Shown: positions 19,608 through 64,000 of the stretch, piece by piece | How positions within the stretch are numbered: the first letter of the stretch is position 1 | How the letters are laid out: each line of letters starts with the position of its first letter | Assembly: GCA_963920765.1 (NCBI GenBank) | Contig: OY987246.1 | Coordinates: forward strand, 23,817,167 to 23,881,166 | Length of the DNA stretch: 64,000 nucleotides | Origin: Ulota crispa | Lineage: Eukaryota > Streptophyta > Bryopsida > Orthotrichales > Orthotrichaceae | Reading direction: 5' to 3' | The notes under the pieces: model-generated | Database searches by the model: none | What the model saw: the letters and a program-made list of their open reading frames with translations, nothing else | What the model was told of the DNA's origin: nothing | Position numbers and translations under genes: made by a program

Positions 19608-19849
19608 TTAACCCTTGAAGGATGGAGCTACTACAATACATAGTATGTATGGTGCTGTATAACTAGCATTTGCTACCAACAAAAAGTTTTAATTTGGGAT
19701 CTTGACTACCTCACTAGAGGAGCATTGATCTATATTCTACCTTCTCTAAAGATCTCAAATGTAATAAAAGTGTGGATGCACTCCAAATACAAGAAAAATA
19801 CACCGTATTGTACTAGTTGCAAAGGACTACTTTGTCCTTTAGGGGTTAA
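19608..19849. mobile_element. TTAA-CCC element T1
   Basis: 242 bases including the flanking TTAA on both sides. Left end TTAACCCTTGAAGGATGGAG; right end reverse-complemented TTAACCCCTAAAGGACAAAG. Its right half (AATACAAGAAAAATACACCG, TATTGTACTAG) recurs in elements ending near 21,413 and 57,023. TTAA target and CCC terminus are the piggyBac pattern. Non-coding. Confidence 0.65.
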
Positions 19850-19852
19850 GGA

Positions 19853-20823
19853 TTAACCCCTAAATGCCCAAGGCCTTTTTGAGCTTCTTGGAATTTCCAT
19901 GAAGCTGAACAATAAACCAACCTTTTTGTAAATTTCATCAAGTTTTTTAAAATTGCAACTATATTAATTTAAACTAAACATGTGAAAGATTACATGGAAA
20001 AACAAAAATACAACAATATCACTTATAGTTTGAAAGATTATAATGTTGAACATGAAGGTGTCAAAATTGCAAAAGTGACTTGAAATCTTCCAATCCTCAT
20101 TTCACATGTCAAATCTAAAAGTTGGTCTTCCAAAAAACATGAGGTTTAAGGTCATTATATGCTTAACTTTAATCAATTTACGGCTTTCAAAAATCTACTC
20201 CTCTATTTTTTTAAATGAATTTCTAACGTAGATTTTCCTCCGAGCTGTACACCAAATAGTACATTTAGGTTGCTCCATACTAATTTCTCAACATTTTAGA
20301 CTATATAGATATTTACCATGCCGATTACAATAACTTTTGTCAGAATGTACTGCAATAAACAATGGAGGAAGAAAGGAGAGGTTGGGCGCAACAACAAGCA
20401 CCAAAGCCAAAGAAAAAGGAAATTGGAACTTTAGACAAAATTAGGAATTCTTGTAGCATAAAGAGAGTTGCATGCCCCTCCAAGTGGCCAAGGATGAGTT
20501 ATGAGGTAACTTTGCCAAGGTAAGGAAACCTAATTGTGAAAGGCAACCTAAATGCACTATTTGGTGTAGTGTATTTGAGTTTCATTTTCAAAATTTTCTA
20601 GTGCTCAAAAACTCAAGATTGCAGTGGACACCCTTGTACAAAATCTTGAGTAGAAAAATTATCAACATTCATTTTCAAAATCAAATTTTTGGTATTGAAA
20701 ACTAACTTCAAAAAAATCTTGGATTGAATTTTTTTCACTAAAAATAGTGATTTGATATGATTTTATTCATCTTTGAGGTTTTGTAAACACTCAAATTGGG
20801 TGCTTTAGGCTTGTAGGGGTTAA
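19853..20823. mobile_element. TTAA-CCC element T2 with a nested TA-type element
   Basis: 971 bases, TTAA to TTAA. Left end TTAACCCCTAAATGCCCAAG; right end GCTTGTAGGGGTTAA. Its sequence is collinear, in reverse orientation, with the 654-base element at 49,662-50,315 except for an insertion at 20,250-20,566, which accounts for the greater length. It starts three bases after T1 and shares its right TTAA (20,820-20,823) with T3. No protein. Confidence 0.75.
20250..20566. mobile_element. TA-duplicating element nested in T2
   Basis: 317 bases with inverted ends CACCAAATAGTACATTTAGG and (right, reverse-complemented) CACCAAATAGTGCATTTAGG. TA lies on both sides (20,248-20,249, 20,567-20,568). Comparison with the uninterrupted relative at 49,662-50,315 (GAGCTCTAATGTATTTGAG) shows exactly one TA there, confirming insertion with TA duplication. 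A second copy is at about 57,174-57,485. Likely a Tc1/mariner-type MITE. Confidence 0.82.
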
Positions 20824-21530
20824 CCCCTAAAATCCCCAGCGCCCCAAATCTAGCCTCTCCATATTCAATAGTTTGTTGACTTTGACCATTGTAATGTTTT
20901 GATTTGTGCAGTGAAAACTCACCAAATTTTTCATACATCTGCAGACCTTAACCCTTAAATGTCCCAAGCAAGGTCCGGGAAATATTTGAGATTTTTCAAT
21001 AGGTGTCATTCAATTCTTGTATTGAATTGGTTTATCAAGGACCACTTTCAGTTATTTTCTCTAGTTCATACTATAAATAAAAAAATCAAAGATTTTCAAT
21101 TGGTTCTTAGCCAAAGATTATAAATTGTAAACGGTTTTTTCTCATTTCAATCAGCTAACATTGAACTAGCGGTCAGTTCTTCCCGGACCTTGGTCCCAAA
21201 AGCATAGTAGATACATTGCCGTATATTTGGCATTTGCTTCCAATAAGAAATTATAAATTGGGATCTCAAATAGCTCACTAGAACCCTGTTTATCTATATT
21301 CCAACTTCTTTGTTGATCTCAAATGTAGTAGAGGTATGGATCCATTCCAAATACAAGAAAAATACCCCGTATTGTACTAGTCACAGAGGGCCTTTCTCAC
21401 GTTTAAGGATTAAGGGTTAAGCCTAACTTGTGGCCAACTCTCCTAAATGTTGTTTTTGAACTTGCAATGCTAAATTATTTGCAATGAGATCCAACACAAC
21501 ATGAATTTGGGCTGGGCGCTCAGGGGTTAA
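20820..21530. mobile_element. TTAA-CCC element T3, with T4 inside it
   Basis: 711 bases. Left end TTAACCCCTAAAATCCCCAG followed by CGCCCC; right end reverse-complemented TTAACCCCTGAGCGCCCAGC. The left TTAA is the same one that closes T2. A further TTAA-CCC element occupies 20,948-21,413. Confidence 0.68.
20948..21413. mobile_element. TTAA-CCC element T4 nested in T3
   Basis: Left end TTAACCCTTAAATGTCCCAA; right end CACGTTTAAGGATTAA, with a second TTAA at 21,417-21,420, so the right boundary could be either. Its right portion matches T1 and the orphan end near 57,023 (CCAAATACAAGAAAAATAC). Non-coding. Confidence 0.6.
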
Positions 21531-21599
21531 TGCAAACGAATGAATTTGTGAATGACAGAGTTCATCCAAGCTTCGTAACTACATCGACTGCCTTGTGGT

Positions 21600-21787
21600 T
21601 GGTTCAGGAGCCAGCCTGGTTCAGGAGCCAGCCATTTCAGGCAAAGCCTTCTTCTGCATGGCCACCACTGCCCACTTGCACCCTTGTCACCTCACCTCCG
21701 AGTTTCTTGCTGCTCGAGAGGTTTCGTTTTCGTTGAGCGCTTAGGGTTTGTGTTTGTGCGCGACTATTGGACCTCTTGGCAGGCATT
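21600..21787 (+). promoter_or_regulatory. Probable 5' leader/promoter-proximal region of HSBP
   Basis: GC-richer than the element-filled DNA that ends at 21,530. It contains a direct repeat of GGTTCAGGAGCCAGCC (near 21,600 and 21,618) and pyrimidine-rich stretches. I see no clear TATA box and no consensus heat-shock element. Confidence 0.4.
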
Positions 21788-24196: not shown

Positions 24197-25024
24197 ACTA
24201 CACTAATAATGGTATTTAGTGTTAGCAACACTAATTACAAACCGCAACACTAAATGTCAACAATTCCCTTAATGTTACCAATATTAAATGTCAACCTATA
24301 CACTATTTGTCAACTATTGTAATTTTTGGGAGTAATTTTTTTACAAGTTTACATTTAGTGTTAGAAATTGGTTCATTTTTATTACAACAAAAAAACATAA
24401 ATTAAATTCATGAGTTAATATCTAAACAACTATTTGGCGCAAACTACAAACTTGGGCCAAATTGAGTTTGTCCATTAGATTAGAATCATTGTCATTGTTC
24501 ATTAATGAAAAATGATAAATAATATTCAAAAAATTCAAAATCCAAAAAATCCAAAAATCCAAAAATTTGAAATAATAGTAATAATAATAATAATAATAAT
24601 TTCTTCAAAAAAATATTAATTTTTTCTCCAAAAAAGGGTTAATTTTTTTATTTAATGTTATAATCTTGTGTTCCCAAAGTTCCCAATGAAGTTTCCAAAG
24701 TTCCCATATGACATTCCCAAAGTTCCCAATGAAGTTTCCAAAGTTCCCATATGGCATTCCCAAAGTTCCCATATGATGTTCCCAAATTTCCCATAGGACG
24801 TTCCCATAGTTCCCACATGACGTTCCCATAGTTCTCACATGATGTTCCCATAGTTCCCACATGATGTTCCCATAGTTCCCATAGTTTGGAGGAGGCAACA
24901 AAGCGTATTGTGCATAAAAAGAAGGCAACTCTAAATGCAAACTAGTTGAGACTTAGTGTGAGTGAAGTTAAAGTGCAGGTAACACTATTAGTACCATAAC
25001 ACTAAATACCATTATCAGTGTAGT
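24197..25024. mobile_element. Inverted-repeat element with CACTA-like end and inner minisatellite
   Basis: About 828 bases. The left end reads ACTACACTAATAATGGTATT and the right end reverse-complemented reads ACTACACTGATAATGGTATT, both continuing TAGTGTTA. The left end is preceded by C, giving CACTA, but the right is not, so a CACTA assignment is tentative. The interior holds a TAA microsatellite (24,578-24,600) and a minisatellite (24,668-24,890). Non-coding. Confidence 0.65.
24668..24890. repeat. Minisatellite of TTCCCA-AGTTCCCATATGA units
   Basis: About ten or eleven imperfect copies of a roughly 21-base unit such as GTTCCCATAGTTCCCACATGAT. It makes long open frames on the minus strand (repeated MGTLGTSYGNFGN-like), which are repeat translations, not genes. 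Confidence 0.85.
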
Positions 25025-27646
25025 TCACATTTGTTACTATGCTTGTTGTTTTCTACATTGAATTGAGAGGCGCCTCACACTATGCTCCATGTCCCATTAA
25101 AAAAAATTTGAAATTTTGTTTAATACAAAGCCAAAACTTGGGATTTAGTGCTTCATATTATGTCCAAAGATCCAATTTATTTGGCCCACATGGTAAAACT
25201 TTTTGAAAGTTTTGATACCAAAGAAGGTGCAACTACATTCAAATTTGGGGTGACCATTTAGCTAAACCAAATTGCCAATCTAAGTAACACCAATATTTTT
25301 GCATGAAATATTCACAATGTTCTCTGGTATATCTTTATGTTGTTAATAACCCAACAAAGGTAGGATCTTGCATTGAGGTAGGACTTTTAGAGATGGGACT
25401 TGGGATAAAGGGCGAAGTGCCTAAGTAGTTAGATGCATGTAGTATTCAATGTAAATCAATGAGGCCTAATTATCCACATGTAATTAGCAGCCACTTGAAA
25501 AAAATTCCAGAAACCAAAATTCCAGAAACCCACAAGTTGGCTTCCAGCTACACAACACTCTGTAGTATACAGGAGAAGAACTTTATTATATTCTTTGAGA
25601 AGCAACTTACATTGTAATCCATATTCTTGTTATGCACAATATCTATTACATACACGTAGTTAGTAGAAGGTATCAAAGGTTACAAGGAGAGCCATTAATG
25701 GAACGCCATACAAGCTACCTTCAATGTAAGCCAAAATTCTAAGTCCTTTTTTGGTTGCCATCTAGAACGAAGAAAGACAAAATCTCACAATTGCTAGAGA
25801 GTACCATGTTCCAAATATTATTTTTATGCTTTGAAGTGGAACTTGGCATTAACAAAGGATATTGTTTAACCCTTAAACGTCAAAAAGAACATCTTTTGTC
25901 CTCCCGTTTCAATAAAAGATTATGTACTACAAAAAGAAGTTGTTTTTTGTTTTCTTTTTATCAAAGTGATTGTAAACATATGATCCATCATGGAAGGATA
26001 CAAAATTTATAATTAGATGCACTCATATTTTTAGGTGACCCAAATTGTGAGAAGATTCAAAATCACGGTGTAAGGTTCCAAGCAACTCTTCTTGAAATTC
26101 CATGGGGCACCATGCATTGTTGACTTTTACGGCATTAAGAAATAATATTATAATTGCTAAGCACTTGGTGCTATTGTAAAGAGTACTATAGCTGGACTAG
26201 TCATGGTGACTAGTGCAGCATTTAAGGGTTAAGTACTATCTCAAATTTATGCTAAACTTTGAGATTAAATAAACTCTATCAGGTTCATGGAACCATCCAA
26301 AACAAAAAGAAAAAAAAAATTAAACAAACAAAAAATGAAAAAAAAGTCTTAGTCACAATATAAATTATAAAAAATTCCTGTCATTACTATCCATGCAGGT
26401 AGGTGTTTTCGGCGGTGAAATAATGTAACAAAAGAAATGTAATTTTTTGGTCTCAATTTGCTAAGGTTTACAATCTATTGATTGCACAATTTTTTTGCCG
26501 CGACTCAATTACGTAGAGAGAATATCTGGACTTGTTGAATAATGTTATGATTGTTACAACTAGTGTTTTGGGAGAATTGACAAATCGAGTGTTGCAATTA
26601 AATGAAAGTGTAAGCAGATTTTTATTGGACTTTGAAAGTACAAGTTAAAATTGGTCTCATTTTCCGAAAAAAGAAGATCTAATTATGATACAAATAGATA
26701 CAAATAGAGGTAGTAACCAAAGTAGATTTGTGAAAATTTGATTTGATACAGGAAGTGAAGGATGGTAGTTGGTTGATCTAAAACCTCACCAAACAGCCTA
26801 ATATACTAGTGAAAATGAAATTGTGAGCCTAAAAGAAGCACACATCTACTTACATACAAGGGTAAAAGTAAAATTTGCCGTTATTTGGAGTTGGTTGATT
26901 GTATCTTCAATCTTGACTTTAACTTAATTACATTTTTTAGATTTAAATATGAAACAAAATTTTCAAGTTCAATCTTCTAGTGGTAAGTTTCTACCCCAAT
27001 GTGCATACGCCAAGTGAAAAGATTAAAGTTTTTCTACCTTATGTTTACAAGTAATTCTAATTCAATATACCAAACCTATCTAAACCATGATATCAATGGT
27101 TGTGCACTAAAATCATTATAAAAGTAAGTTTTCTTAATAAATGACAAGCTTGCCTCTATCTTTTTCCAAATCCTCTCTTACCTTTTACAAGGTTTTCAAA
27201 TGAGAGAAGCTCCATTTTTGTTAACAACCAAAAATAATTAAAATTTGCCCCCAACTTGTGGTTGATCAATAATGTCATGAATGGAGTGTCCAACTCTTGT
27301 ATTTGGAAATTGAAGACATTTGTTTTGTTTTGTTTTTTTTGGACTTTGTCAACTCTTGGTTTTCTTTACGACATTTTAAAGAGACTTTGCAATTGTCCAT
27401 ACTAATAACGTCTTGTTTCAAGTTCTTCATTAAACTATGAATTAGTCATACTTAACAGGACGTTTTTATCATATTCTCATACTTAGAAACATCGTATGCC
27501 TATAATTAGATATATTAAAAGCTTGCTTTGGCTTTTTGTATGCCTATAATTAGATACATAGTTAAAGTTTCCTTTGCTTTTTTTTACTTTTCTTCAAAAT
27601 TTAGTTCTTTCCCAAAATCATGAGAACAAACCAAATGGCCTCTCAT
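25025..27646. other. AT-rich intergenic DNA
   Basis: Contains the short TTAA element at 25,866-26,232, an A-rich run at 26,300-26,345 and a roughly 60-base direct duplication near 27,490-27,590 (TGCCTATAATTAGATA twice). Nothing else recognised. Confidence 0.5.
25866..26232. mobile_element. TTAA-CCC element T5
   Basis: 367 bases. Left TTAACCCTTAAACGTCAAAA; right end reverse-complemented TTAACCCTTAAATGCTGCAC. The interior is unlike the other TTAA elements. Non-coding. Confidence 0.6.
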
Positions 27647-28383
27647 CAATCCATCCATCCATCCATCATTGCCGTTTATCCATCCATTCATCCATCTTCT
27701 CATACATTCATCATCCTCTCATCCATTCATCCATCCATTCATCCATCCTCTCATACATTCATCATCCTCTCATCCATCCATCCTCTCATTTATCCATCCT
27801 CTCATCCATCCATCCATCCTCTCATCCATCCATCCATCCTCTCATCCATCCATCCATCCTCTCATCCATCCATCCTCTCATCCATTCATCCATCCATCCA
27901 TTGATTCATCCATCCATTTGTCCATCCTTTCATACATCTATCCATTCATCCATCCATCCATTCGTCCATCATTACCATTTATCCATCCATCCTCTCATCC
28001 ATTCATCCATCATCTCATACATCCATTATTCATCCAACCATTCATTCATCCATCATTATCATTTATCCATCCATCCTCTCATCCATCCTCTCATACATCC
28101 ATTATTCATCCAACCATTCATTCATCCATCATTACCATTTATCCATCCATCCTCTTATCCATTCATCCATCCTCTCATCCATCCTCTCATACATCCATTA
28201 TTCATCCAACCATTCATTCATTCATCATTACCATTTATCCATCCATCCTCTCATCCATCCATCCACCCATTCATCCATCATCACCATTTATCCATTCATC
28301 CAACATTACCATTTGTCCATTCATTCATCAACCCACTCATCCATCATGACCATTTCTTCATCCATTCATCCATCCATCCACCA
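27647..28383. repeat. Long ATCC-type microsatellite with higher-order units
   Basis: About 740 bases of ATCC/CATT repeats. It starts as ATCCATCCATCC and becomes a mixture with CTCTCATCC and TTATCC. Between about 27,975 and 28,240 a longer unit of about 80-100 bases (TTATCCATCCATCCTCTCAT, then CATTATTCATCCAACC) repeats about three times. All plus-strand frames stay open, giving a 341-residue Ile-His-Pro-Ser repeat that is not a gene. It lies about 2.4 kb upstream of the first sure ATG9 exon. Confidence 0.93.
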
Positions 28384-28639
28384 CCACTTGTTCGTCCGCA
28401 GGTCGTCCGCGCTTCCATCCTGGACCACCACCGTCAACCCCAGTCAAACGGAGGGAAAATCAAAAATCCCGAGGGATATAAAACACATTCAATTGCAATA
28501 TGCCGGTTCAACTGGCCGTGTCCCGAAGCACGAGGCAACAAAGCCTTGCACTTGCACTTGAATAAGCTTACTGTACCACCAGCGCACCAGCCGTCGTGAC
28601 GAGAGAAGAAGTTGAATGAATAGCCGTCGCCGCCCGTCT

Positions 28640-36786: not shown

Positions 36787-38212
36787 TTAACCCCTAAGCG
36801 CCCCAACCGTTTTCAACAAGATTAGGGTTTCGGGAGCTACGACTTATGTGCATCGCATCTCAGTCAGTCGGATAATCCAGAAAAAGTGACCATTGAAAAT
36901 AGTGGAACACCTATTTAGAGAATTTGCAAAACTTACGAACAATTGACAGTGGGTGATGGGAGATTATAACATTTGATCAAACATGTAATGACAATCTCTT
37001 TTTTTGGCAAGTACTTGTTACTTATTGATTTTTGCAAAATTCTAGAAGCCCCTAATTCACCTTAAATTTGTGAGTAGTAAGATTAGATGTGAATGCACAC
37101 AATTGCAAATTAATGAAGATTATTGTACCTTACTAGCAGCTTTGGCAAAAATTAATTCTTGAAATATTTGCCTAAATTTTTCATAATTATGAACATTGGT
37201 TGCCTAAAATTTGGAAAATGATTTCTAAATAGTGCTAAAAAAAGAAACTATACAAAAAGGTGCTAAAATAAGAATAAAAACACTACCAAATAAGTTTTGT
37301 AATTACATTGACTTACACATAGATCACAATATAAAATTTGAGCTCAAAGTTGCAAAATCATGCAACACACATACTTCCAACTCATTTTTGTCAACTTCTC
37401 TAAATGTTCATTGTAGAATTATTTGCTAGATAATTTTCATTTTATTGAAACACAACCTCACATAAAAAGTACAAGCAAAAGTTAGTTCATAAATACAATA
37501 AGCATTAAGGCAACATGAGAAATTAGCAACTACCATTTTTTTCATGAATGCCATCTTATCAATGAATACTAAAATGAAGATCATCTCAAATTGTTGATCA
37601 TATCAATTCGATACAATAGCTAACCACCTCATTTATAGTATTTGACTTGAATGAATGCCTAAATATATACATTTTTTTTTGAAAGTGACTAATTTTTTTT
37701 TTAACTTATTTTTTAGTTGCCTAATCAAGTTTTTGCACTTTAATTAATTATTTGACAAGCAAGTGCCAAACTTGCTAGTAAGGTATGGTATACTTTTTGA
37801 AGATGTTAAGTTTTAAGTCTTTGAACTAATGTATGCGGAAAATGGTGACCAATACAATTGGTGAAGAATGCCACATCAAAGGTTTAGAACATGCTTGAGC
37901 TGTTAATTGGCAAATCTTTCACCACCACAAAGTACATACAAGGAAGCTTGCAACATGTATTGATTGCTTGCAATCTATTGTATAAGATGTTGCTTGCCAC
38001 CTTGTCTTATATAGTGTTCCACCCAATTGAGGCTTGCAAGGCATGCATACAACATTTGGCTTGCTCTATTATTACTCCAATTGCATGAACCACTTGAATG
38101 TCTTGATCATTGTAGTTTACAACAAGGTCAAAAATTTATATCTTGTGCTTCAGAGAGGCCTATGAAATCCTATGAGTGCACTTTTAGTCCTCTTGGGGCA
38201 ATCAAGGGTTTA
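36787..38212. mobile_element. TTAA-CCC element T6 with a nested TA-type element
   Basis: Left end TTAACCCCTAAGCGCCCCAA. It is collinear with the element at 53,121-53,890 (shared GTGGAACACCTATTTAGA, AGATTAGATGTGAATG), but is interrupted by a 656-base insertion at 37,128-37,783. The right end (GGGGCAATCAAGGGTTTAG) is decayed and no longer shows a clean TTAA. Confidence 0.65.
37128..37783. mobile_element. TA-duplicating element nested in T6
   Basis: 656 bases. Ends CCTTACTAGCAGCTTTGGCA and (right, reverse-complemented) CCTTACTAGCAAGTTTGGCA, a 20-base inverted repeat with two mismatches, flanked by TA on both sides (37,126-37,127 and 37,784-37,785). The host element resumes on the far side in line with its relative at 53,121. 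Probably a Tc1/mariner-type MITE. No transposase. Confidence 0.8.
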
Positions 38213-39668: not shown

Positions 39669-40435
39669 TTAACCCCTAAAGGACCAAAGAGCCCAATATG
39701 GTCAAATGGGGTTCTTGGAGGTATAAAAGTAGATAAAAAAGACATTGCATGCTCAAGTTTTGGTCTACCACTCAAGTCCAAATGGAGCTAAAAGTCCAAC
39801 AAAACTTTTGGATTAGCTTGTTCCTCGAAGCGTCTAGATTTTGCACCCAAACATTTGAATTTACTATTTTTATTATTAAAACTATTAGTGGGAGTGTATA
39901 TAGGCATTGTACATTGCATTGTGGATGGAGGAATTTTGGATGGGATGGGTTGGAAGCCCACACTCCCATTTATAGGGGAGAAGGTTGATCACTTTTTTTT
40001 TTCTCGATTGGGCAAGGTTTTTGTAGCTCTAAAATAGTGAGCCGGGTAGATCCACTTACTTTGAATGACCATAAGTTTTGGAGTTTTTTTCCCATTTGAG
40101 GAGGTTTTTTTTCCCATCAAGTATAGCTAGACACGGTCTCAAGGGATCAACCATTAGGTTTTTTTTTTTGGGAAAAAATCACATCAAAGTCCAAAATCCA
40201 TATTGTGAATTGATACCCAAATTAACAAATATGAGATTCTCAATGGTGAGGATTTTGCAAATTTACTTCAATTTGAAATCAAACTAGCCTTAAACTTTTG
40301 ATTTATATTTGGGTATAGAATGGCCGGTTTGGATTGTGTGAATATTGGTTGGACTTTCTAAAAATTGAGGGAATGTGCTAAAGGTTCCATATTGGAAGTA
40401 TGCTAAATTTTCTTAACAAGATGCTTAGGGGTTAA
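39669..40435. mobile_element. TTAA-CCC element T7
   Basis: 767 bases, TTAACCCCTAAAGGACCAAA to GATGCTTAGGGGTTAA. Only the first seven or so bases of the ends match each other. A piece resembling the right end of the ATTAATTTGGGAAAA MITE (CCCAAATTAACAAATATGAG, near 40,212) lies inside. Short open frames show no domain. Confidence 0.6.
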
Positions 40436-42376: not shown

Positions 42377-43318
42377 TTAACCCATAAAGTTCTAGGCTAA
42401 GTTTTCACCAAAACCACCCTAAAACTGCCATTTCTAGTACAAGTATCAAATTTTAGAAAAAAAACAAATTTTGACATATGTAGCTGCAAGATCTTGTACT
42501 ACACTAGTATCAAAAGATGGGAAAAAAAGTTCAAAATTTTTCACCTTGTGGATTGTAAGATATTTGAGTTTGAATTGACAAAAAGCCTTGTTTTGTCCTT
42601 GGAAAAAATGTAGACAGCTGCACTTCACAAGGCCATATTTTTATGAATTTTTCTTGAAATGGTTGTAATTTTTTGGATTTTTTCTTCAAAGCAAATTGGG
42701 TACACACGTGAAAATTTTCAAATCGTTTGGAATTGTTCAACACATAGGATAAAAATAGTAAGTACAAAGAAGTAGAGAATGATTCAAACCACTAAATTGT
42801 TGAGAATGTAATTATGAAAATGAAACATTCCAATACGAATGGTTGTAATGTGGTAATAATCAATCTACATCTTTGGGTTTTGTTTAGGGTCCAATATGTT
42901 GAAAATTGAGTAAAATAAAGGACTTCAAAGTTTATTTTAGAGTGGAGAATCCATAATTGCCCACAAACAAAAACTCCTCATAACTTTCATGTCATTGCTT
43001 GAAATTGAATGATTCAAAGCTTCCCATGTATTAGAAAAAATTTGAAGAACCAATTTCAAATTTTTTTTTTAAAAGAAAGTGAATTTTAAAGAAGTTTTTG
43101 GGCTGCCTAGACAGGTAGTCCTCTCCAAATTTTCATAAATCCTTGCATAACTTCTTTAACAAATGTCAAAATGAAAAAAAAATTTGATGCCCACATAGAT
43201 CTTTGAATTTCCCACCTTCAATAAAAGCTTCAAAAATTCACACAAAATAGCTTATTCAAAGGTACATGCCCGAAATCCCATTTGTCCCCCAAAGGAACAG
43301 TGGTCCTTTAGGGGTTAA
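42377..43318. mobile_element. TTAA-CCC element T8
   Basis: 942 bases. Left TTAACCCATAAAGTTCTAGG; right end reverse-complemented TTAACCCCTAAAGGACCACT. The right 130 bases match the arms of the palindromic element at 60,208-60,934 (CATGCCCGAAAT, AGATCTTTGAATTTCCCACC), while the middle matches, in reverse, the element that runs off the window end (GAATGATTCAAACCACTAAA). Confidence 0.65.
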
Positions 43319-44454: not shown

Positions 44455-45106
44455 TTAACCCCTCACCGCCCATGGTATTTTTCAGTGTCTCAGAATTTGC
44501 TTGAAAGTGAACAAAATGCTTGCATTTTGATCAATCTTATCAATTTTCTTTGAAGCGCAACTGTACAAATTCAAAGTAGACTTGTTATAGATCACATAGG
44601 AAAAGAAACCACAACAATATCACTTGTGGATTGAAAGATTATAATGTTTGACCATGAGGGTGTTAAAATTGCAAAAGTGATTTGAAGTCTTTCACTCCTC
44701 TTTTTGCATCTCAAACCTAAAACTAAGGGTACCAAAAAAACCTAAGTATGGAAAGTACAACATTTATAACCCCAATCAATTTATGGCTTCTCAAAATCTA
44801 TTCTACGATTATTTTAATTGAATTTTTAATGTGAATTTTTCTCCAAGTTCTAGTGTACTTGAGGCTCATTTCCAAGAGCCTTTAACACTAGAAAGTGAAG
44901 ATTTGCTATGGATACCCTTGCACAAAATCTTGAATAGACAAATCACTTAGATTCATTTTCAAAATCAGACTCCTAATATTGAAACTAGACTTTTGTAAGA
45001 GTTTAAAAATAATAATAATCACTGAAAAAATCTTAGAAAGAAGTCGCACATCTCTAAATAAAATTCAAAGGGGCCAATTTGGACCCCTTGGGCAGTGAGG
45101 GGTTAA
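44455..45106. mobile_element. TTAA-CCC element T9
   Basis: 652 bases. Left TTAACCCCTCACCGCCCATG; right end reverse-complemented TTAACCCCTCACTGCCCAAG, an 18-of-20 match. Interior is the same family as the elements at 19,853-20,823 and 49,662-50,315 (GAAAGATTATAATG, GTTAAAATTGCAAAAGTGA). Non-coding. Confidence 0.8.
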
Positions 45107-46669: not shown

Positions 46670-48156
46670 TTAACCCCTAAAGTAAAAAGCTGAGTTTTTT
46701 TTTTTGGGCAACATAATGATTTTGGGCAGCTCACTTCAAATGAGTTTACTTTTTTATTTTTTTCTTTGAAATTGTCACACATGATGTGTCTAAGGAGTGG
46801 CTTTAAGGCAAGCCTCTCTAATTTGTGCATTCTATAAATAAATGCACAAATTAACAAATTAATTTCCAGGAGTATGCACAAATCAAGCCCACATTTCCTT
46901 TACTAAAAAAGACCTTATCAGCATGTGGGCATAAAAGCCAAGCGTGACGCAAATAATGAAGTTAACAAAGACCTCCCTCCAGTCTTGCCTCACCATTTAG
47001 TTTGTCTCCGACCTAAAGATTTGAGTTCTAATATCTAGAATTTTTGAGCACAGTTGCAATAGTCATGGGACAAGCATACCATTGCTCACATTGAGCAAGA
47101 TTTATGTGCCATCAAGGATGCCTACTCGAGTGAACTGGTTTTGATTGTATCATTGGATGGTTGCAACAACATTGCAACTTTGTTTCAAGAAGCTTGGAAG
47201 ATTGTTGAAGGTCGCTTGAGTCACTACACAACTTTTGTGGCGGCTTAACCACCATGTTTCCTAACATGGCCACAATTGAATCCAAATTCTGTTCTTCAAC
47301 TTTTGAAGGATGAGCATCATAAATTGTTGCTTGGCCTCTCGCTTGAGGGGGTGTTATAGTGCAAGCAGTTCCATGCCTTGTTACAATTAATTTGATATCA
47401 AATATGCGCATAACAAAGTTTAATTTGTAAATTTGTGACAATGCACAAATTAACTTTCATGATATGCACAAATTAGCTTAATTTGTTAATTTGTGAAAAT
47501 GCACAAATTAGAGAGGCATGCTTTAAGGTCCAATACTTTTCATAACTTTTGACTTCATGGTTCAAAAGTTATTACATGATATATAGTTTTCTTTGCTCGG
47601 CAAGCCGCCTAGGGAGCTCAAATTTTTATTTCAAAATTATATTTTTTGAGTTCATTTTTAAATTTGGTTCTTTAGATTAATATATGCATGGGAATTGGGA
47701 AGCTTTGAATCATACAATCTTGATTAATGAGATGAAAGTAATGAGGAGTTTTAGTTTGCAAGTAGGTATGGAGTCTCTCAAAACCATACCTACTTGCAAA
47801 CTAAAACTCCTCATAACTTTCATCTCATTAATCAAGATTGAATGATTGAAAGCTTCCCAAGCATATCAAAATCTAAAGAACCAAATTTAAAACAAAAAAC
47901 AAAAAAATGTAATATTTAAAGAGGATTTATGAGCTGCTCGGATTGCTAGCTAAGCAAAAAAACTACACATCATGCAATATCTTTTGAACCATGAAGTCAA
48001 AAGCTATGAAAATTGTTGGGCCTTATAGTTACTCCTTAGACACATCATGTGTGAAATTTTTTAAGAAAAATATGAAAACCCCATTTGTAGTGAGCTACCC
48101 AAATTTGCTATGTTGCCAAAAAAAAAAAAAACAATGTTCAAAGCTTTAGGGGTTAA
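46670..48156. mobile_element. TTAA-CCC foldback element T10 with a nested hAT-like element
   Basis: 1,487 bases, TTAACCCCTAAAGTAAAAAG to AAAGCTTTAGGGGTTAA. Its two halves fold on each other: CATACCTACTTGCAAACTAA and its complement meet near 47,780, and the outer arms (CACATGATGTGTCTAAGGAG and complement) continue outward. The left arm is split by a 712-base insertion at 46,809-47,520. The element at the window's right edge (63,299) is the same family. Non-coding apart from the insert. Confidence 0.8.
46809..47520. mobile_element. hAT-like element nested in T10
   Basis: 712 bases with an 8-base duplication CTTTAAGG on both sides (46,801-46,808, 47,521-47,528) and ends CAAGCCTCTCTAATTTGTGC and (right, reverse-complemented) CATGCCTCTCTAATTTGTGC. 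An 8-base duplication and CA..TG ends are typical of hAT. On the plus strand, near 47,140-47,370, broken frames read LTTMFPNMATIES and KDEHHKLLLGLSLEGVL, which resemble a motif I associate with plant hAT-type transposase relatives; stops and a frame change interrupt it. A dead, internally deleted copy. Confidence 0.78.
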
Positions 48157-49661: not shown

Positions 49662-50315
49662 TTAACCCCTAAATGCTCAAATGACCAGATTTGGGTCGTT
49701 ACTAAACTTTGAAGGTGAATAAAACCTTATCGGTTCACTATTTTTTGTATTATTTTATTCCATTATAAGTTTGTTTTGAAGCCTATTTTCAGTATCAAAA
49801 ATCTCATTTTGGAAATGAAAGTTGACCATTTTTCTACTCAAGGTTTTGTATAAGGGTGTCCACTGCAATCTTGAGTTTTCTAGTGTTGGAAGATCTTGAA
49901 GATGAGCCTCAAATACATTAGAGCTTGGAGAAAAATCCACATTAGAAATTCATTTAAAATATATATAGGAGTAAATTTTGAAAGCTGTAAATTGATTATG
50001 GTTAGACATGTAATGACCTTAAACCTCATATTTGTTTGGTGACCAACTTTTTAGTTTTGACATATGAAATGAGGATTGGAAAACTTCAAGTCACTTTTGC
50101 AGTTTTAACACCTTCATGATCAAGCAATATAATCTTTCAAACTGTAAGCGTTACTGTTGTGTTTTCTTTTCCATGTAATCTCTAACATGTTTCGTTTGAA
50201 TTTGTATGGTTACAATTGAATTTTTTTTAATGAAAATTATGAAAGGGTTGGTTGATTGTTCAGTTTCAAGAAAATGCTAGGAAGTTCAAAAAGGCCTTGG
50301 GCATTTAGGGGTTAA
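49662..50315. mobile_element. TTAA-CCC element T11 (uninterrupted reference copy)
   Basis: 654 bases. Left TTAACCCCTAAATGCTCAAA; right end reverse-complemented TTAACCCCTAAATGCCCAAG. It is collinear with 19,853-20,823 minus that copy's insert and with 44,455-45,106, so it defines the full length of this family. Non-coding. Confidence 0.82.
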
Positions 50316-50434: not shown

Positions 50435-51292
50435 GGAAATTACAAATGGGGGCATGAAAATGAAAAACATTACAAATAGGGGCACAGTTTCAAAATAATT
50501 ATAAATAGGGGCACAATTTCAAAATAATTTTGTAAATTTTTGTATTTTTTTTTGGTTTGGACATTGGTTGATTTGAATACATCACATTAAATGTTAGCTA
50601 ACTTCCAAAAAAATTAGAGGTCTCCAAAAATTGCCATCCTCATTACTAATTAAGATTCCTTTATTTATACTTGATTTGGAGAGGCCTTTAATTTTTTTGG
50701 AAGTTACTAACATTTAATGTGATGTATTTAAATCAATCAATGTCCAAACCAAAATAAGTTACAAAAACTTACAAATTATTTTGAAGTTGTGCCCTTATTT
50801 ATAATTAGGGAATTGATATGTGGACCCCCACCCTTTCAGTTACTGTACCACACCCCAAGGAAAATTTTAGATTTCTACCATCAAAAAGATGAATTTGAGA
50901 ATTTTGAATTCAGATTTGGACTTAGAGACCATGATTTTGTCTAGAGCCATAAAAAAGTTGCAATTCAACAACATCCAATGAAAAAATTTAGGTAGGGAGA
51001 AAAGTGTTACTTTTACTTTTGTTTGTAAAAAAAGATAAATATTTTCATTGGGTGTTGTTGAATTGCAACTTTTTATATGGTTCTAGATTAAATCATAGTC
51101 TTTGAGTCCAAATCTGAATTCCAAATTCTCAAATTCAACTTTTTGATGGTAGAAATCCAAAATTTTCCCTGAAGATGTGGTATAGTAATTGAAAGGGTGT
51201 GGTACACATATCAATTCCCTCATAATTATTTTGAAACTGTAACCCTATTTGTAGTACATATTTCATTTTCATGCCCCCATTTGTAATTTCCC
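50435..51292. mobile_element. Foldback element interrupted by a second foldback element
   Basis: The outer element begins GGAAATTACAAATGGGGGCA and ends with its complement. The arms also pair through AATAGGGGCACA-type repeats and TTAATGTGATGTATT. Its right arm is split by the 404-base element at 50,817-51,220, so its own length is about 450 bases. Confidence 0.82.
50817..51220. mobile_element. Foldback MITE, AGGGAATTGATATGTG family, copy 2
   Basis: 404 bases with the ends AGGGAATTGATATGTG and CACATATCAATTCCCT, the same as 12,676-13,098, and the same interior (CAGATTTGGACTTAGAGACC). ATAATT lies at 50,811-50,816 and 51,222-51,227, a 6-base duplication with one extra base on the right. Reading across the junction restores the outer arm TTTATAATTATTTTGAAAC, proving the nesting order. 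Confidence 0.88.
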
Positions 51293-53120: not shown

Positions 53121-53890
53121 TTAACCCCTGAGCGCCCAAGCTGATTTCACCAAAATTAAGGTTTTTAGAGTCCGACAATTTTGATGCATTGTATCTCAGT
53201 TAATCAAATGATTTACAAAAAGTGATCATTGAAAATAGTGGAACACCTATTTAGAAAATGGCTTGCAAATTTTGGGAACAACTGATTGTGGGAGATGGGA
53301 GATTATAAAATTTCAAATAACATGTGATAACAAAATTTCAATTTTTGGTAGGTAGTTGCTATTTGATGATTTTTACAAAATTCTATAAGCCCTAGATTCA
53401 CCTTAAATTTTGTAAGCAGCAAGATTAGATGTGAATGAACACAATTGTAAATTATTGAAGATTGCACTTCTTTTTATGTCAAGTTTTAGGGCTTCAAATT
53501 GCTATTGAACGGAAAATAATGACCGACACAGTTGGTGACGGTTGCCATAATAAAGGTCTAGAACATGCTTAAGCCCTTGCCAACAGCTTTCCCGCTATCA
53601 CAAAGCTTACACAAGGAAGCTTGTAAGGGATATTGACTGGTTGCAACCTATAAAACGCTACTTGCCACCACGCCCCTGTTGCCCCGTACGGTGTTTTACC
53701 CAATCAAATATCTTGCAGCACTTGTACAACATTTGGCTTTCCTTTGCCATTACTCCATTGGTGTGGACAGTTTGAATGCCTTCATAATTGTAGTTTATAG
53801 CAAGATCAAAAAGTTAGACCCAGTGCCTCAAAACAAGGCTTTGAAATCATGGGAGGCAATATATGAGGCACTGGGGCACTCAAGGATTAA
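53121..53890. mobile_element. TTAA-CCC element T12
   Basis: 770 bases. Left TTAACCCCTGAGCGCCCAAG; right end GGGGCACTCAAGGATTAA. Uninterrupted relative of 36,787-38,212. Its right TTAA (53,887-53,890) is also the left TTAA of T13. Confidence 0.7.
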
Positions 53891-54802
53891 TCCCCAAACA
53901 CCCAAGGCCATTTTGTCTCAAGAAAAACACTAAAACCGCCCTTTTCAGATATGAGATCCTAAGATAAAAAAAATTATATTTTCTAAAAATTTGACCATAT
54001 AATCTTACACAAGACTCAAGCAAGAAGCTATATTGAAAATTTTATGAGTTTTAACTATATGGATTGAGAGATATGATCATTTGAAGTTAGAATATAGGGT
54101 TTTTTTGACCTCTGCCCAAAATTTTTAGACCCTTTTTACCACATTTTATGAACAATATTTGCAACATGAATGTTGTAGAGAGTTGTGCAACATGCTCAAA
54201 TCATGTTAGGCATATTTCCGCAAATTTTCAAGATCAACAAAGACATGGAACACACCCTATGTGGCCCTGCATTGCAAACATTTGCTTCAAGTTCATGCTA
54301 CATTGGGATTTTTTTGCAAACCAATTTTTTGAGGGCTGATTTTGAGTTACAAAAATCCAAATAGTAGCTTGTAAGACATTATTTACCTTTATTGACAACC
54401 ACAATTTTTTTGTTGAAAAAATGACCAAATCTCTAGTAGGTATTGCATTTTGAATACCATTTTATATACCATAAACAAGAATGTATGTATCTAGTACACT
54501 ATTGCTTTGAATGTACTCCAATGAAGGGTCATGCCTTCATTGGTTGCTTTTGAGAAAAGTCCATGAAAAATGGTCTGCCTAACTACCCATCGAAGTCTTG
54601 AACAAAAAAACCCTTAAAATTCCAATAATTTTTAACCATAATTTCAATTTCAAAAAAAAGTGTACTCACGCATTAGCCCTTGTAGAACTCTATTTTAGAA
54701 TAAAAAGTCCTTAAAAATTTATCAGAGCCCAATAGAACAGGCTTGCCCAAATTTAGTTTTGTCCTTTGTGACCCATGAAGACAATGGGCTTTTGGGGGTT
54801 AA
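53887..54802. mobile_element. TTAA-CCC element T13
   Basis: 916 bases. Left TTAATCCCCAAACACCCAAG; right end reverse-complemented TTAACCCCCAAAAGCCCATT. The interior (GGATTGAGAGATATGATCAT) is shared with 41,440-41,730 and 55,480-55,740. Non-coding. Confidence 0.7.
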
Positions 54803-54817
54803 AGACCAAGAGAGGAG

Positions 54818-56243: not shown

Positions 56244-56472
56244 TTAACCCTTGAACGGCCCAAAAGCCCTTTGCGGCCGTATGTGCGGTCATATGTACAG
56301 ACGTATTTGAGCTACTTTGAGGGCTTTTCAAAAAAAATGCACCCACCATCATACAATCCTCCAATATGTATGGTTCTAACACTTCATTTCCAGTTAATTC
56401 AAACTTCTAAATATTGACTGCAATTGTGTTTGGTACCATATCTCTAGAGCTCAAGAGCCCTTCAGTGGTTAA
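56244..56472. mobile_element. Short TTAA-CCC element T14
   Basis: 229 bases. Left TTAACCCTTGAACGGCCCAA; right end reverse-complemented TTAACCACTGAAGGGCTCTT. A small palindromic patch (GCCGTATGTGCGGTCATATG) follows the left end. The interior is not shared with the other elements. Confidence 0.55.
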
Positions 56473-57173
56473 AATCTATACCAAACAATTTCTAAAAACT
56501 AACACAACAATCTAATAACACACGGATGAAGAACTAAACTTTTATTTGCACGGCATCTACTTAAGTTCATTTATTGCTCAAAATTTAAACACTTGGATAT
56601 AAGGGATTAAAGAATACGACAATTATGAACAAAGTTTTGGTTTACACATCCCAATTCTAAAAGTGCTCAAGGATAAAATAACTCTAGCACACTTTTGAAA
56701 TCTTTGTTAGTAAAAATAAAAATCAATGCCTTTGGTGACGCGCATTGATCAACTCCATTCCTCCACCACCATGAAAGACCCCTCAACAAACACAAAAATT
56801 CATGTGCATACACATAGTATATACACTGGTGAATAATTGTCATTCGCTATCAACAAGAAATTTTAATTTGAGATTTTTAGTAGCTCACTAGAACCGCACT
56901 GATCTATTCTCCAAGTTCTTTGCTGGTCTCAAACGTAGTCAAGGTGTGAATTCATTCCAAATACAAGATAAATATCCCATATTGTATTGGTTGTAAAGGG
57001 CCTTTCAGTCGTTTAAGGGTTAAAGAGATTCAACTAAACAAGTAAAAAAATTTAGTGTTAGAGATGATTAATTACCTCGACTCCACTTGCTTACAATCAA
57101 GTTGGTTTGGGCTTCTACCTTGTAGCCCTAAACACAAGCTCCAATCGCCAACTTTTTTGCTAAATGTATTAAA

Positions 57174-57485
57174 CACTTAATATTGCATTTAGATTGCCCC
57201 ATCAACTAATTCCTTGACTTTTTAAAATATATAAAGACTTACTAATTCTACAATAACATTCATCAGTAATTACTACAATGAACAAATTTTAAAGGACCTA
57301 ATACTGATAACAACAAAGTTGCAAAAAAAATTAACAACTTTCATACTGTAAACCTTACAAAATCAAAAATATTTAGAGAGTTGCATACTTGCATATGCCT
57401 CAAAATGATCAAGCAATGAGTCATGTGGTAACTTTTAGGATAAGGCTGCCCGATTGTTGAGGCAACCTAAATGCAATAATTAGTA
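57174..57485. mobile_element. TA-type MITE, relative of 20,250-20,566
   Basis: About 312 bases. Left end CACTTAATATTGCATTTAGA with TTGCC; right end reverse-complemented ACTAATTATTGCATTTAGG with TTGCC. Interior words (ATGAGTCATGTGGTAACTTT) match the nested copy in T2. The outer boundaries are accurate to a few bases only. Confidence 0.6.
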
Positions 57486-58065
57486 TATAAATCTTCAACT
57501 CCAAAATGATGTATTAACAGTTTGAAAAGATTATAGGAAAGCCAAAGCTCTCGTGGGGGCTTGGTAATTGGTACACTGCATGTATGTGTTTGTGGGGCTA
57601 GGATGGAAAATCTCATTTCTTTTACTAAAGTAAGAATCTACTCTTATTCTTATTCTTATTTTGTAGTTGGTCAATTTCATCCCCTTTCCTTTCGAAGTTG
57701 TAGATTGAACCAGAGGCTCTGAATCTATGTATAAATTCAAAATTCCTAGATCGAATCCTCAGGTGGTCCTCAGGTGGTAAACATCTAAAGTCTTGTATAT
57801 CCACTAGGTGAAAAAGCTGAGCCACAGACGCGTCTGTACGGTCTGTGTAGCACTACATCATACCAAGCCGTCGTAGGGCAACCAACCTATAGCTGCGACT
57901 GGTGCTCAGGATTACTTTTTAAATAGTGTTTGTTGCTGTGACAGTTGGTTGGGTACACTCTCATTGTTTTTTTTTCGGGTGAAAATTTTCCAGTTCTGAT
58001 AGAGGGGATAGAGCTATGCGGCCTATGCCAGAGCAGTATCTTTCCTCGAAATATCTTCTAATGTA

Positions 58066-59248
58066 AGAGCATCTCCCCCGGTGCTTGTCACAGTTGGCTC
58101 TTTAAGAGATTTTCATCTACTTTTAAAGGGCTCTCGAGTTCCTTGATCTCCACCCATGCTCTTCAAAAATGTGGCACGCGTTATTCATTAAATTGGGAAA
58201 AATTTACATATTGGTATTTTTGAATTTTTCATTTCTAAGAATTTTTAGGTGATTTAGAGTGAATATTATGATGATTTCTTCAAGATCTTTCATCAATGAT
58301 GAAATACCTTACAAGAATTATCAATAAACTTGCTTCAAATCATCAAAATATTCTCACAAAAGCAAAATTTAGTATTCCCAAAATACATTTTGGGAAAGTG
58401 CTTTTTCCCAATTCAATGAATAACAAATTGTGACCTTGCACTTCAACATGCCCAACAAATAATCATTTGACCACTCACCAAGGAAAATAGAGGATAAAGT
58501 TCTCTAAACATAGGATGAATAATGTTTTGAAGGGCCATTGCGAGACATGCTAGGATAGAGTGTCTTGAGAGGGGTTGAAGAGGGCCCTCAACACTTTTCA
58601 TCCACTTTTGGCAAGTGTAAGACCCTTGGAGCAAGGGTTTTTTTTTTTTGGCAAATTTTTGCCTAAAATCTTACCTCAAAAATTGTCTGGCTATTAATAC
58701 ATTGAGAAATTTGGATGGAAACGTGGATGAAATTGCCGAACCCCCCTTCACCAAAAAACCCAATTCGCCATATGTTGGATCAAAGTAGCTTATATTAGTA
58801 GATTTTTGAATGAACCTCCACATCACATTCATTTTGTCCAATTTTAGTCAAATTTTCCTTACATGCTTGCATTCTAGGGTGCCGGCTAGTAGTGTTTAAT
58901 TTCTTGGCAAAAATCTACCAGAATCTTACCTCCAAACATGAGTGGTGATCCTAACACTGGAAAATTTCTTGAAAAAAATGGATGAATTTGCCAAAGCCCT
59001 CCCCACGTGTGCACCAAATTTGCCAGCTTTTGGATGAAAGCTACTAATATTAGTAGATTTCCTAGATGAATGTTCACATGTCGTTGATTTTATCAAACTC
59101 TATCCAAATTTTCCTTACCTGCTGGTAGGGTGGGGTGCGTGTCGCTCTATCATGAAAAAACCAAAAATTAAACGCTGCCGGCTGGTCTACCCCAGGACAA
59201 AAACATAAAACAAAACCCCGCCTTGGAGGGCACCGGTGGAGATGCTCT
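58066..59248. mobile_element. Inverted-repeat element with AGAGCATCTCC ends
   Basis: About 1.18 kb. Left end AGAGCATCTCCCCCGGTG; right end reverse-complemented AGAGCATCTCCACCGGTG. It carries a MITE (58,191-58,422) and an imperfect duplication of about 260 bases (58,642-58,880 against 58,905-59,130; CTTACCTC, ATTAGTAGATTT, TTTTCCTTAC). The flanks on both sides align with consecutive parts of the sequence around 59,900-60,010, so it was inserted into a copy of that sequence. No transposase seen. Confidence 0.65.
58191..58422. mobile_element. MITE, ATTAATTTGGGAAAA family, copy 3
   Basis: About 232 bases. Left TTATTCATTAAATTGGGAAA; right TTTCCCAATTCAATGAATAA, a 20-base inverted repeat with one mismatch. 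Interior TTCTTCAAGATCTTTCATCA matches the copy at 599-842. Nested in the 58,066-59,248 element. Confidence 0.75.
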
Positions 59249-60125: not shown

Positions 60126-60207
60126 CTCCTAAGGTAGGAAGCTCTAATTTGGACCAGACATTTTGAATGGACTATATACGGGTCACAAAAACAATGTATA
60201 AAGGTTC

Positions 60208-60934
60208 TTAACTCTTAAAGGATCAACTGTCCCCTTGGGGGACAAATGAGATTTCGGGCATGCACCTATGGTTGGACTACTTTGCGTGATTTTTTGAATT
60301 TTTTATGGAAGGTGGGGAATTCAAAGATCTATATGGGCATCTAATTTTTTCTTCATTCTGACATTTATTGAAGAAGTTACAAATGAATTTCTAGGAAAAG
60401 GTCTAGATTGGGCAGCCCAAAAATTTCTTAAAAATTGCATCAAAAATAAATAAAAATATGAAATAGGTTCTTCAAACTTATTTATGGGTGGGGAGTTTTG
60501 AATCATTCAATTTTCATTGATGAGATGAAAGTTCTGAGAAGTTTTTGTTTGTGTGTAGGTCTGGTTTCTCTCAAAATCACACCTACCTGCAAACAAAAAC
60601 TTCTCAGAACTTTCATCTCATCAATGAAAATTGAATGATTCAAAACTCCCCACCCATAAATAAGTTTGAAGAACCTATTTCATATTTTTATTTATTTTTG
60701 ATGCAATTTTTAAGAAATTTTTGGGCTGCCCAATCTAGACCTTTTCCTAGAAATTCATTTGTAACTTCTTCAATAAATGTCAGAATGAAGAAAAAATTAG
60801 ATGCCCACATAGATCTTTGAATTCCCCACCTTCCATAAAAAATTCAAAAAATCACGCAAAGTAGTTTAGCCATAGGTACATGCCCGAAATCTTATTTGTC
60901 CCCAAAAAGGGGGCTTGGTCCTTTAGGGGTTTAA
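60208..60934. mobile_element. TTAA-CCC palindromic element T15
   Basis: 727 bases forming an almost perfect inverted repeat centred near 60,571; each arm is about 350 bases. The same 61-residue frame is open at 60,321-60,506 (minus) and 60,635-60,820 (plus) because the arms are identical there, so neither is a gene. Left end TTAACTCTTAAAGGATCAAC, right end reverse-complemented TTAAACCCCTAAAGGACCAA. Near-identity of the arms suggests recent origin or conversion. Confidence 0.85.
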
Positions 60935-63298
60935 TGGGTCATATTTTTTAGTTTCAAAAATTGTACTTGTGTAAACATTGTTTTAGGAAATTAAGAGGGT
61001 GACATGCGCCACTGTTGAGTGTGTTTATTGGTCATAATTGTGTTCAGATTTGTCTTTCAATAAAATATAGATATATGTCATACTAAAATAAATGAAAACT
61101 TGTTCTCAATCACGATTTGAGTATTAGAATATGGAATGGGTGCTTGCACGCTTTAAGAGCCTTATTAGAGCATTCTTGGCTTTGTAGTGGTTGCTTTTAG
61201 GTCTAATGTGCTCCATTTACAAGTCGCCTTTGCATCATGAATGCTACCACCTATGATCAAGAATAGCTACCTATGTACCTTTTGCTTTGATAAATTATAA
61301 TTAATTCACAGTAACTCAAAAAAATTCAAATTAAATGGCCACACAAGTGTCTCTTCTTTGAATTTCTACCAAAATATTTCCATTTTACCTAGTTGCCCTA
61401 ATTTTTTACACGGAAGCTCACTTTTGCTTAGATGGTCCATTCACAAGCCTTTAGGGCCTCCTTCACTAGTAGAAAACCCTGTTAGAGGTCATGCTATTTT
61501 GTGTTACGGTGCAGCAGAATTGTGTTAGACTCCCTCTTCTGGACTTCTAGGCCACCTCTGTTGTTAATTTTTGTTACCTATCTTGTTGGCAATAACATGG
61601 CATATTGGAAACTACGTTTCAAATGTACGTAGTATGTTCATGAATGGGAAAAATGTTCCTTGTAAGTATTACCATATCTACACAAACAAGCGGAATCCAA
61701 CGTGGTAAGTCCATGACCGATGACATGGCGTTAATCTACATGGACAATGACTTGGACTAGTAAACTAGCATTTCAAAATCACTTTGCAATTATTGCAAAG
61801 CACATGCAAAAGTCAGTCAACCTAATTAGTATGGGCCAATCCAAATTTCAATGTTCTAGCTAATAACACGTGTACATTCACATAGTTCATCCATGCATTT
61901 CTTCAATCGCAACCACTTTCATTCCGCCTCAACACATTTCTCATATCAGCGGGGGTGTGTGCTTTAATAAAACTTAATCCAAATGGTATCTGTGTATGTG
62001 GTATTAATGTAGCAATATCGAGTAATAGTAAATGCTCTTCACATCACATATTTTTTGGCATGCTTGTTAGATTTCTGATAATTTGCAAAATTGAATTTCA
62101 TAATTCCTATTACTGTTTCTCTATATAGCAAATAATTCCATCATAGCTTCTAGGAAATTTGTAAGAGAAGATACATTCATGTTGTGAGGAAGTTGTTGCG
62201 AGGAAGTTGTTGCAAAGTTTGTCATAGAACATATTAAATTTATCATCAAATTATATTGTAATAATATTCTATATAGCCATGCATAATTGCAATATTTAAA
62301 CTATATCATTACAAAGGCATTGGTATAGATTTAACAATGTAAGGAACAAGAGGATAGTACTAAGAGATAGGTATTTCATTTTTTTTGCCAATTACTACTT
62401 GATATCAAAAGTTTATAAAGATCAAAACTTCCTTTTTGGTATTATTGCCTTGGCAATTTATGGTGTACCAAATTGATTTGAAAAAATCTAAACATGGATT
62501 TTTTTTAATATATATTTTAATTAGACAACAATACATAATTCACACAAAAAAGCTTAAATCCAAATGTTGAGTAGAACATAGGATTTTATTGGACAATCAA
62601 ACAATTGAAAATATAGTTAGAAGAATATTAAATGTTAAAAACAATACCAAAATTAAAGTAAATTCAATATTATATTTCTACTTTGATGCATACATGCAAC
62701 AAGATTTCTTGGAAACCAATGCCCATTAGTAAAAAAATAGATTCCTGCCTTCTTTAAATGTAATGTTGTACTAAAGGAACTAGTAAAAATCCAAGTCCAA
62801 TAAGTACAACAAGCCCTTTGAATTGACAACCTTTAATTGGTGTAAAACAGGATGCACTTTATAAAAGTGGAGCCATTAATTCATAAGCAATAATCGGTAT
62901 GTAAGATGTCCCATTATTCCAAATGTTTTTTGTGACTAGTGTTATTTGTAAACATAGTTGATTTTAGCAGTTGTCACATGCGTATAAAATAAATTTTAAA
63001 TCTCTAAAAGGAATTTTTAAAATTTGCTATGTTCAAATTTGATAAACCATCACTTTCATCATATCTCTAAAATTTGAGGGGCTCAAAGTAAAACAAAAGT
63101 ATAATAAAAACTTTCTTCTACTTATTTTATTAATGTCATTTTCTTTTGAGAGTTCAATTGACTAATTGCTATTTCAAGTTCAATATATCAAAATTACAAG
63201 TGCTTTATAGAATTTGGCTTAATTTTATAGAAGTCTAAAAGCAAGTATTTTTGTAGATTTCTTGCATACAGTTGGTTGATCATATTTGTTATGTTAAA
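60935..63298. other. AT-rich DNA, nothing certain
   Basis: A CACTAGTAGAAAACCCTG sequence at 61,466 looks like a left CACTA-type terminus, but I find no matching right end. A short tandem GAGGAAGTTGTTGC occurs near 62,188-62,215. No gene recognised. Confidence 0.45.
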
Positions 63299-64000
63299 TT
63301 AACCCCTATAGCCTTGAACATCCTTTTTCAGCAACATAGCAATTTTGGACAATTCACCACCAATGGGGTTTTCATTTTTTTCTTTGAAATTTGAATACAT
63401 GATGTGTCCAAAGTGTAGCTTTAAGGTCCGACAATTTTCATAACTTCTGACTTCATGGTTCAAAATTTATTGCATGATATGTAGTTTTCTTTGCTTGCCG
63501 GGTAGCCAATAAACTTCTTTTAAGATTGCGTTTTTTGAATTTTTTTTTGAAATTGGTTTTCTTGCATTCATATATACTTGGGAAGCTTCAAATCATTCCA
63601 CATTGATCAATGAGATGAAAGTTATGAGGAGATTTTGTTTGAGGGCACTTATGGATTCTCTACTCTAAAAGAACTTTGAGTTCTTTATTTTACTCAATTT
63701 TCAATATTTTAGAGAAAAAAAAAAAGAAAGAAAGATATAGATTGCTTATCAAAACATTACAACCATTGTAATTGGAATTTTTTTATTTCCATAATTAAGT
63801 TCTTAACAATTTAGTGGTTTGAATCATTCTCTACTTCTTTTTACTTCCTATTGTTTTTCCATGTGTTGCCAAATGATTTGAAAATTTTCAAGTGTGTACC
63901 CAACTTGCATTGTAAAACAAATCCAAAAAATTACAACCATTTTGGAGTTCTTTTCATACAAATACAACCTTGTGAAGTGCAACTACTTGGATTTTTGCAG
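63299..64000. mobile_element. TTAA-CCC element T16, cut by the window end
   Basis: Left end TTAACCCCTATAGCCTTGAA. The first 350 bases match the arms of T10 (ACATGATGTGTCCAAAG, CTTCATGGTTCAAAATTTAT), and the part from about 63,740 matches the middle of T8 in reverse (TAGTGGTTTGAATCATTCTC). The right end is outside the window. Confidence 0.7.

Follow-up and report, generated by a model that had tools for sequence, protein, structure and literature searches.

The window described here is a 64,000-nucleotide stretch of the genome of the moss Ulota crispa (contig OY987246.1, positions 23,817,167 to 23,881,166, GenBank assembly GCA_963920765.1), and its larger part is densely populated by short elements that open with TTAA-CCC and close with the inverted counterpart. 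We propose that these elements are non-autonomous DNA transposons, resembling miniature inverted-repeat transposable elements (MITEs), and that a piggyBac-type transposase is the likely agent of their movement. This proposal draws on the TTAA found on both sides of most elements and ahead of most end motifs in a search independent of TTAA, on two junctions at which neighboring elements have a single TTAA in common, and on an empty site for one element, called A2 below.

Between positions 19,392 and 64,000, 15 elements have both ends (242 to 1487 bp in length), one more is truncated at the window edge, and there are a few single ends. Coverage is 12,321 bp, or 27.6% of that interval, including the cut element at 63299 and a foldback at 19392-19849. 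The elements were located by seeding with TTAACCC, followed by the pairing of ends. Between 19 and 64 kb, TTAACCC and GGGTTAA number 31 in all, whereas 200 dinucleotide shuffles average 7.08 (standard deviation, 2.77; maximum, 18); the first 19 kb contains a single copy. Likewise, TTAACCCCTAAA with at most two mismatches occurs 39 times, against a mean of 8.93 in shuffles. These numbers bear out the dense TTAA/CCC-ended population described in an earlier reading made without database searches (the sequence-only reading). An artifact of chance or AT-richness could draw on the 420 copies of bare TTAA, but it is refuted by the motif enrichment over shuffles, by inverted pairing that extends past the seeded bases, and by homologous copies that terminate at identical points, and we give it negligible weight.

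Element catalogue and boundaries

The elements and the empty site, with letters denoting families or single elements, are as follows.

19392..19849, no strand assigned: D0/D1; D1 is 19608-19849 (242 bp, TTAA on both sides) and D0 is 19392-19607
19853..20823, + strand: A1, family A, 971 bp; carries an insertion of another kind at ~20250-20566
20820..21530, + strand: H, 711 bp; hosts D2; TTAA at 20820-20823 in common with A1
20948..21413, + strand: D2, family D; nested in H
25866..26232, + strand: E, 367 bp
36787..38212, + strand: B1, family B, 1426 bp, TTAA/TTTA; ~0.7-kb foreign-type insertion at ~37122-37802
39669..40435, + strand: F, 767 bp
42377..43318, + strand: C1, family C, 942 bp
44455..45106, + strand: A3, family A, 652 bp
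46670..48156, + strand: C2, family C, 1487 bp; has ~140-bp inverted ends and, inside, a palindrome
49662..50315, - strand: A2, family A, 654 bp; its empty site is the paralogous stretch 58898-59171
53121..53890, + strand: B2, family B, 770 bp
53887..54802, + strand: I, 916 bp; TTAA at 53887-53890 in common with B2
56244..57023, + strand: D3, family D, 780 bp
58898..59171, + strand: paralogous empty site of A2; the aligned flanks meet at one four-base copy, TTAG
60208..60933, no strand assigned: C3, family C, 726 bp, near-perfect hairpin, TTAA/TTTA
63299..64000, + strand: C4, family C; truncated by the window end

Further ends were sought with a matrix that covers the inner 15 bp and was built from the first set of ends; it recovered three that plain seeding had missed (38212, 53890, and 53887). 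Three boundaries given in the sequence-only reading were revised. The matrix search moved the right end of the element starting at 36787 from 38993 to 38212; what had been taken as one element at 53121-54802 is two, B2 and I; and homology with D1 and D3 places the right end of D2 at 21413 rather than 21420. Unpaired ends include 38993 and 41385, for which no partner occurs among the matrix-search matches. Counts of flank matches, flank words, and termini refer to the fully corrected boundaries. The coverage, between-family identity, coral-repeat, and empty-site searches used the corrected boundaries with the D2 end at 21420, and the matrix search, the scoring of TTAA copies, the tally of the fourth terminal base, and the reading-frame list used the uncorrected first boundaries.

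D0 is an inverted, more diverged copy of the right-end module of D1 and lies to its left, and 19392-19849 can alternatively be read as one foldback. A candidate at 44035-45593, in which A3 is perhaps nested, has good terminal inverted repeats (TIRs) but a right flank of AATG instead of TTAA and was left as doubtful. The insertion within A1 has other inverted ends, ACACCAAATAGTRCATTTAGGTTGC, and a related copy at ~57170-57490, to the right of D3; the insertion within B1 has inverted ends TACCTTACTAGCA and is probably a different type of MITE.

Target site, termini, and candidate superfamilies

TTAA stands on both sides of 13 of the 15 two-ended elements, and the other two (B1 and C3) read TTAA/TTTA. 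Outside these words, matches of at least 3 bp occur in 0/15 elements, 2-bp matches in three (E, F, and A2), and a 1-bp match in one (I), in keeping with the earlier claim that no further duplication lies beyond TTAA. The TTAA-independent check considered every CC[CT][CT]TAAA site on both strands of the whole window: 14 of 21 are preceded by TTAA, none by ATAA, CTAA, or GTAA, and the remaining seven by seven different words. Together with the flank counts, this check supports TTAA as the target site, as the sequence-only reading had held.

The same check bears on two other superfamilies. PIF/Harbinger (Tourist-like) elements make TTA or TAA duplications, both of which are contained in TTAA; a 3-bp duplication predicts NTAA with N free at one end, however, and the excess of TTAA over the other three words disfavors it, leaving this origin very improbable. 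Tc1/mariner-type (Stowaway) elements that duplicate TA, begin with ACCCC at their ends, and strongly prefer T-TA-A would leave strings identical to those of a TTAA duplication, whether at occupied sites, at empty ones, or where neighbors meet. Under such an origin, the outer base would be derived from the target, yet the NTAA-preceded sites are TTAA in 14 of 14 cases; the invariance of the outer T and A favors a TTAA duplication over a TA duplication, and we regard a Stowaway-like origin as improbable. As plant MITEs, Tourist and Stowaway resemble the present elements in being short and noncoding with inverted ends, and they differ in their TAA/TTA and TA duplications (PMC10004981).

Two pairs of neighbors, A1/H and B2/I, each have exactly one TTAA at their common junction, as expected if one element inserted into the TTAA flanking the other and if TTAA belongs to the target rather than to the element. 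Empty sites were sought by joining the flanks of each element through a single TTAA and searching the window with the resulting 16 junctions (the 15 elements plus 44035-45593). For A2, the joined flanks find a paralogous site within the window, 58898-59171, whose alignment spans the junction (276 columns at 72%; E value, 2e-35) and whose site word is TTAG; the alignment scores 48 with one TTAA copy, 38 with none, and 44 with two. A2 gave the only full crossing match among the 16 junctions, and 0 of 161 random TTAA pairs crossed under a stricter rule requiring at least 30 bp on each side. Lesser signals were also seen: the left flank of F has a short crossing similarity to 40718-40803 that extends 3 bp past the single TTAA, and two short crossing matches of A1 were discarded, as they arise from D1/D2 similarity and a local palindrome. 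A search for a B2 empty site via its right-flank repeat gave nothing convincing, and alignment to the neighboring repeat unit, the first of the A2 flank repeat (58710-58860), was uninformative.

The termini conform to the consensus TTAA-CCC(C/T)TAAA-N-G-N-CCAA. Twenty-six of the 30 ends begin with CCC, three with TCC, and one with CTC; none begins with a purine, and nearly all have C or T in fourth place. At TIR positions 1 to 15, the left and right ends agree in 6 to 15 of the 15 elements per position, and in at least 9 at 12 of the 15 positions, with agreement at positions 1 to 3 helped by seeding; deeper than the TIR, it drops to 3/15. Elements of the piggyBac superfamily are characterized by 12- to 19-bp TIRs with CC[C/T]T and by TTAA duplications (PMC2872659), and both the termini and the flanks of the window elements are of this kind.

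Base-by-base comparison was possible with the piggyBac-like elements of corals, using 11 printed TIRs (omitting some right ends and one family that has ambiguous bases). The 30 window ends matched the best of the 11 at a mean of 9.27 of 13 bases, a value reached in 2 of 500 column permutations with the first four bases fixed (mean, 7.36) and in 0 of 500 within-end shuffles (mean, 7.32). By this measure, the likeness to coral piggyBac ends extends past the first four bases to a degree that permuted ends seldom reach. The coral CMITEs and AmiPB elements are similar to those of the window in their TTAA duplications, their CCC(C/T)T termini, and the inner bases of their 13- to 14-bp TIRs; the CMITEs also form tandem arrays, and one is inserted at a TTAA inside another element, as in the window (PMC2872659). 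In contrast, CMITEs are ~100 bp long with a conserved interior, whereas the window elements span 242 to 1487 bp with interiors unrelated between families, and the coral genome carries piggyBac-like transposases, of which none was seen in the window elements (PMC2872659). Trichoplusia ni piggyBac and piggyBat have the same TTAA target and duplications but encode a transposase, and they are likened here by target and duplication (PMC7351741, PMC11707139). Exact TIR patterns did not occur in the collection of viral contigs searched and occurred twice in that of genome contigs, both times in contigs labeled prokaryotic, which is no more than the estimated chance expectation for 18 fixed bases.

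Among other TTAA-targeting superfamilies, Sola3 has its own termini and transposase. Kolobok also duplicates TTAA but is defined by 5'-RR..YY-3' termini (PMC9587614), and it is excluded by the CCC..GGG termini of the window, where no end starts with a purine. A less likely origin is that the elements were mobilized by some other TTAA-targeting transposase, from a different or undescribed superfamily, and that their CCC ends are convergent. Such an origin would fit the lack of a transposase among the element reading frames, and a beetle paper reports piggyBac from animals, fungi, and protists but from plants only occasionally, such as in red algae (PMC12732532). The likeness of the ends to coral piggyBac TIRs past the first four bases argues against it, as do the termini when set beside those of Kolobok, the only other TTAA superfamily that was checked.

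Several observations weigh against a piggyBac-type transposase. Because the ends were seeded with TTAACCC, selection partly explains why the first seven bases are so constant, and the coral comparison, with its 11 printed TIRs, was calibrated by permutations and shuffles rather than by the ends of other superfamilies. In the window, 15 of the 16 junctions lack a full empty site, and the sole empty site reads TTAG. A TA duplication with ends starting ACCCC yields strings identical to those of a TTAA duplication, so that sequence alone cannot separate the two. No transposase was detected in 39 different element reading frames of at least 55 amino acids, a scan that left out shorter decayed pieces, and a documented land-plant piggyBac transposase was not found in the literature examined. 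As no transposase was found, the class is assigned from ends and target only; on that basis, piggyBac is the best-fitting known superfamily, and this much of the assignment made in the sequence-only reading, with its TTAA target, CCC termini, and sharing of ends only, is sustained.

Families, coding content, and host genes

The elements fall into family A (three copies), family B (two), family C (three and a partial copy), and family D (three and a fragment), with E, F, H, and I as singles. Identity within families is ~69 to 83% over aligned stretches, and the population therefore looks old. Between families, interiors are unrelated and only the termini are common: over 380 end pairs, identity is 0.551 at TIR positions 5 to 15 versus 0.269 at positions 26 to 60, which substantiates the earlier description of subfamilies sharing only their ends. 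Family D offers a related pattern, in which the right ~210 bp is common at 77 to 80% identity and the left parts (30 to ~570 bp) are alike only in their first 12 to 20 bp. Several elements are palindromic. The two arms of C3 are identical at 340 of 356 aligned bases (95.5%, gaps excluded) versus 82 to 84% to C1, and because the arms are closer to each other than to C1, the hairpin probably formed after these copies of family C diverged.

We read the end-only sharing and the module swaps as a sign that the transposase needs only the ends. Such a transposase, of piggyBac type and either encoded at another place in the genome of this plant or lost in the meantime, would insert the elements into TTAA sites by cut and paste and would recognize approximately the terminal 15 bp (CCCYTAAANGNCCAA), such that any DNA between two CCCYTAAANGNCCAA-type ends could move. 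Recognition of the ends alone would account both for families that are alike only at their ends and for one right-end module joined to different left halves. By analogy with T. ni piggyBac (PMC7351741), transposition may proceed through a hairpin intermediate with TTAA overhangs and seamless excision.

Scanning with Pfam-type profiles covered 40 rows of element reading frames of at least 55 amino acids (39 different sequences) and returned no transposase, as the sequence-only reading had noted, and only weak, below-cutoff matches to unrelated families. Rfam and tRNA scans of the window returned nothing.

Elsewhere in the window, open frames match B3 (3313, 8951, and 15556, with 4493 below the cutoff), ATG9 (30810, 31515, and 32025), and HSBP1 (21737). 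B3 is a plant domain, and the B3, ATG9, and HSBP genes support the plant host assumed in the sequence-only reading. Among solved structures, the ATG9 frames turned up no counterpart from a plant, and the comparison gave no closer placement of the host. The three B3 frames and the fourth, just under the cutoff, lie in a row at 3313-16050, apparently as a tandem cluster of B3 genes. Palindromic repeats with arms ~82 to 85% identical lie at 12674-13106, 50496-50807, and 50801-51226; of these, 12674-13098 and 50805-51220 are 77% identical and form one family. There is also a long tandem array of ATCC/ATTC-type units at 27562-28400 and a tandem repeat at 24664-24884 (period, ~22 bp; TTCCCAAAGTTCCCATATGA-like; eight copies in register).

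PiggyBac in land plants

The sequence-only reading had placed piggyBac outside the usual plant superfamilies, which is too strong in light of published listings. In one review, seven MITE superfamilies are listed for angiosperms, PiggyBac included (PMC10004981), and another study counts it with the superfamilies that occur in every group examined, among them land plants (PMC4438587). A 2008 grapevine paper gives no PiggyBac for plants in the part seen and so agrees with the earlier statement for its date (PMC2528002). PiggyBac labels also appear in repeat tables for a fern (1230; PMC6890710), Stipa (1; PMC8319324), and manzanita (121; PMC9113465), which we do not take as proof. A survey of open-license literature by titles and the beginnings of abstracts found no characterization of land-plant piggyBac elements. 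We therefore regard the window as a dense new example of an already known kind, plant piggyBac MITEs, with the driver unproven.

PiggyBac is a tool for scar-free genome engineering and, to our knowledge, plants are usually described as having little or none of it. We tentatively raise a further possibility, which we hold to be somewhat less probable than its negation: a land-plant lineage may have, or may once have had, a piggyBac transposase of its own, perhaps gained by horizontal transfer. This enzyme would have fueled an extensive radiation of TTAA elements, and the exchange of end modules would have created further families, near-perfect hairpins among them. A plant genome in which TTAA/CCC elements are dense would point to a piggyBac system native to plants, or else to a different transposase that targets TTAA, and it would tell which ends to look for.

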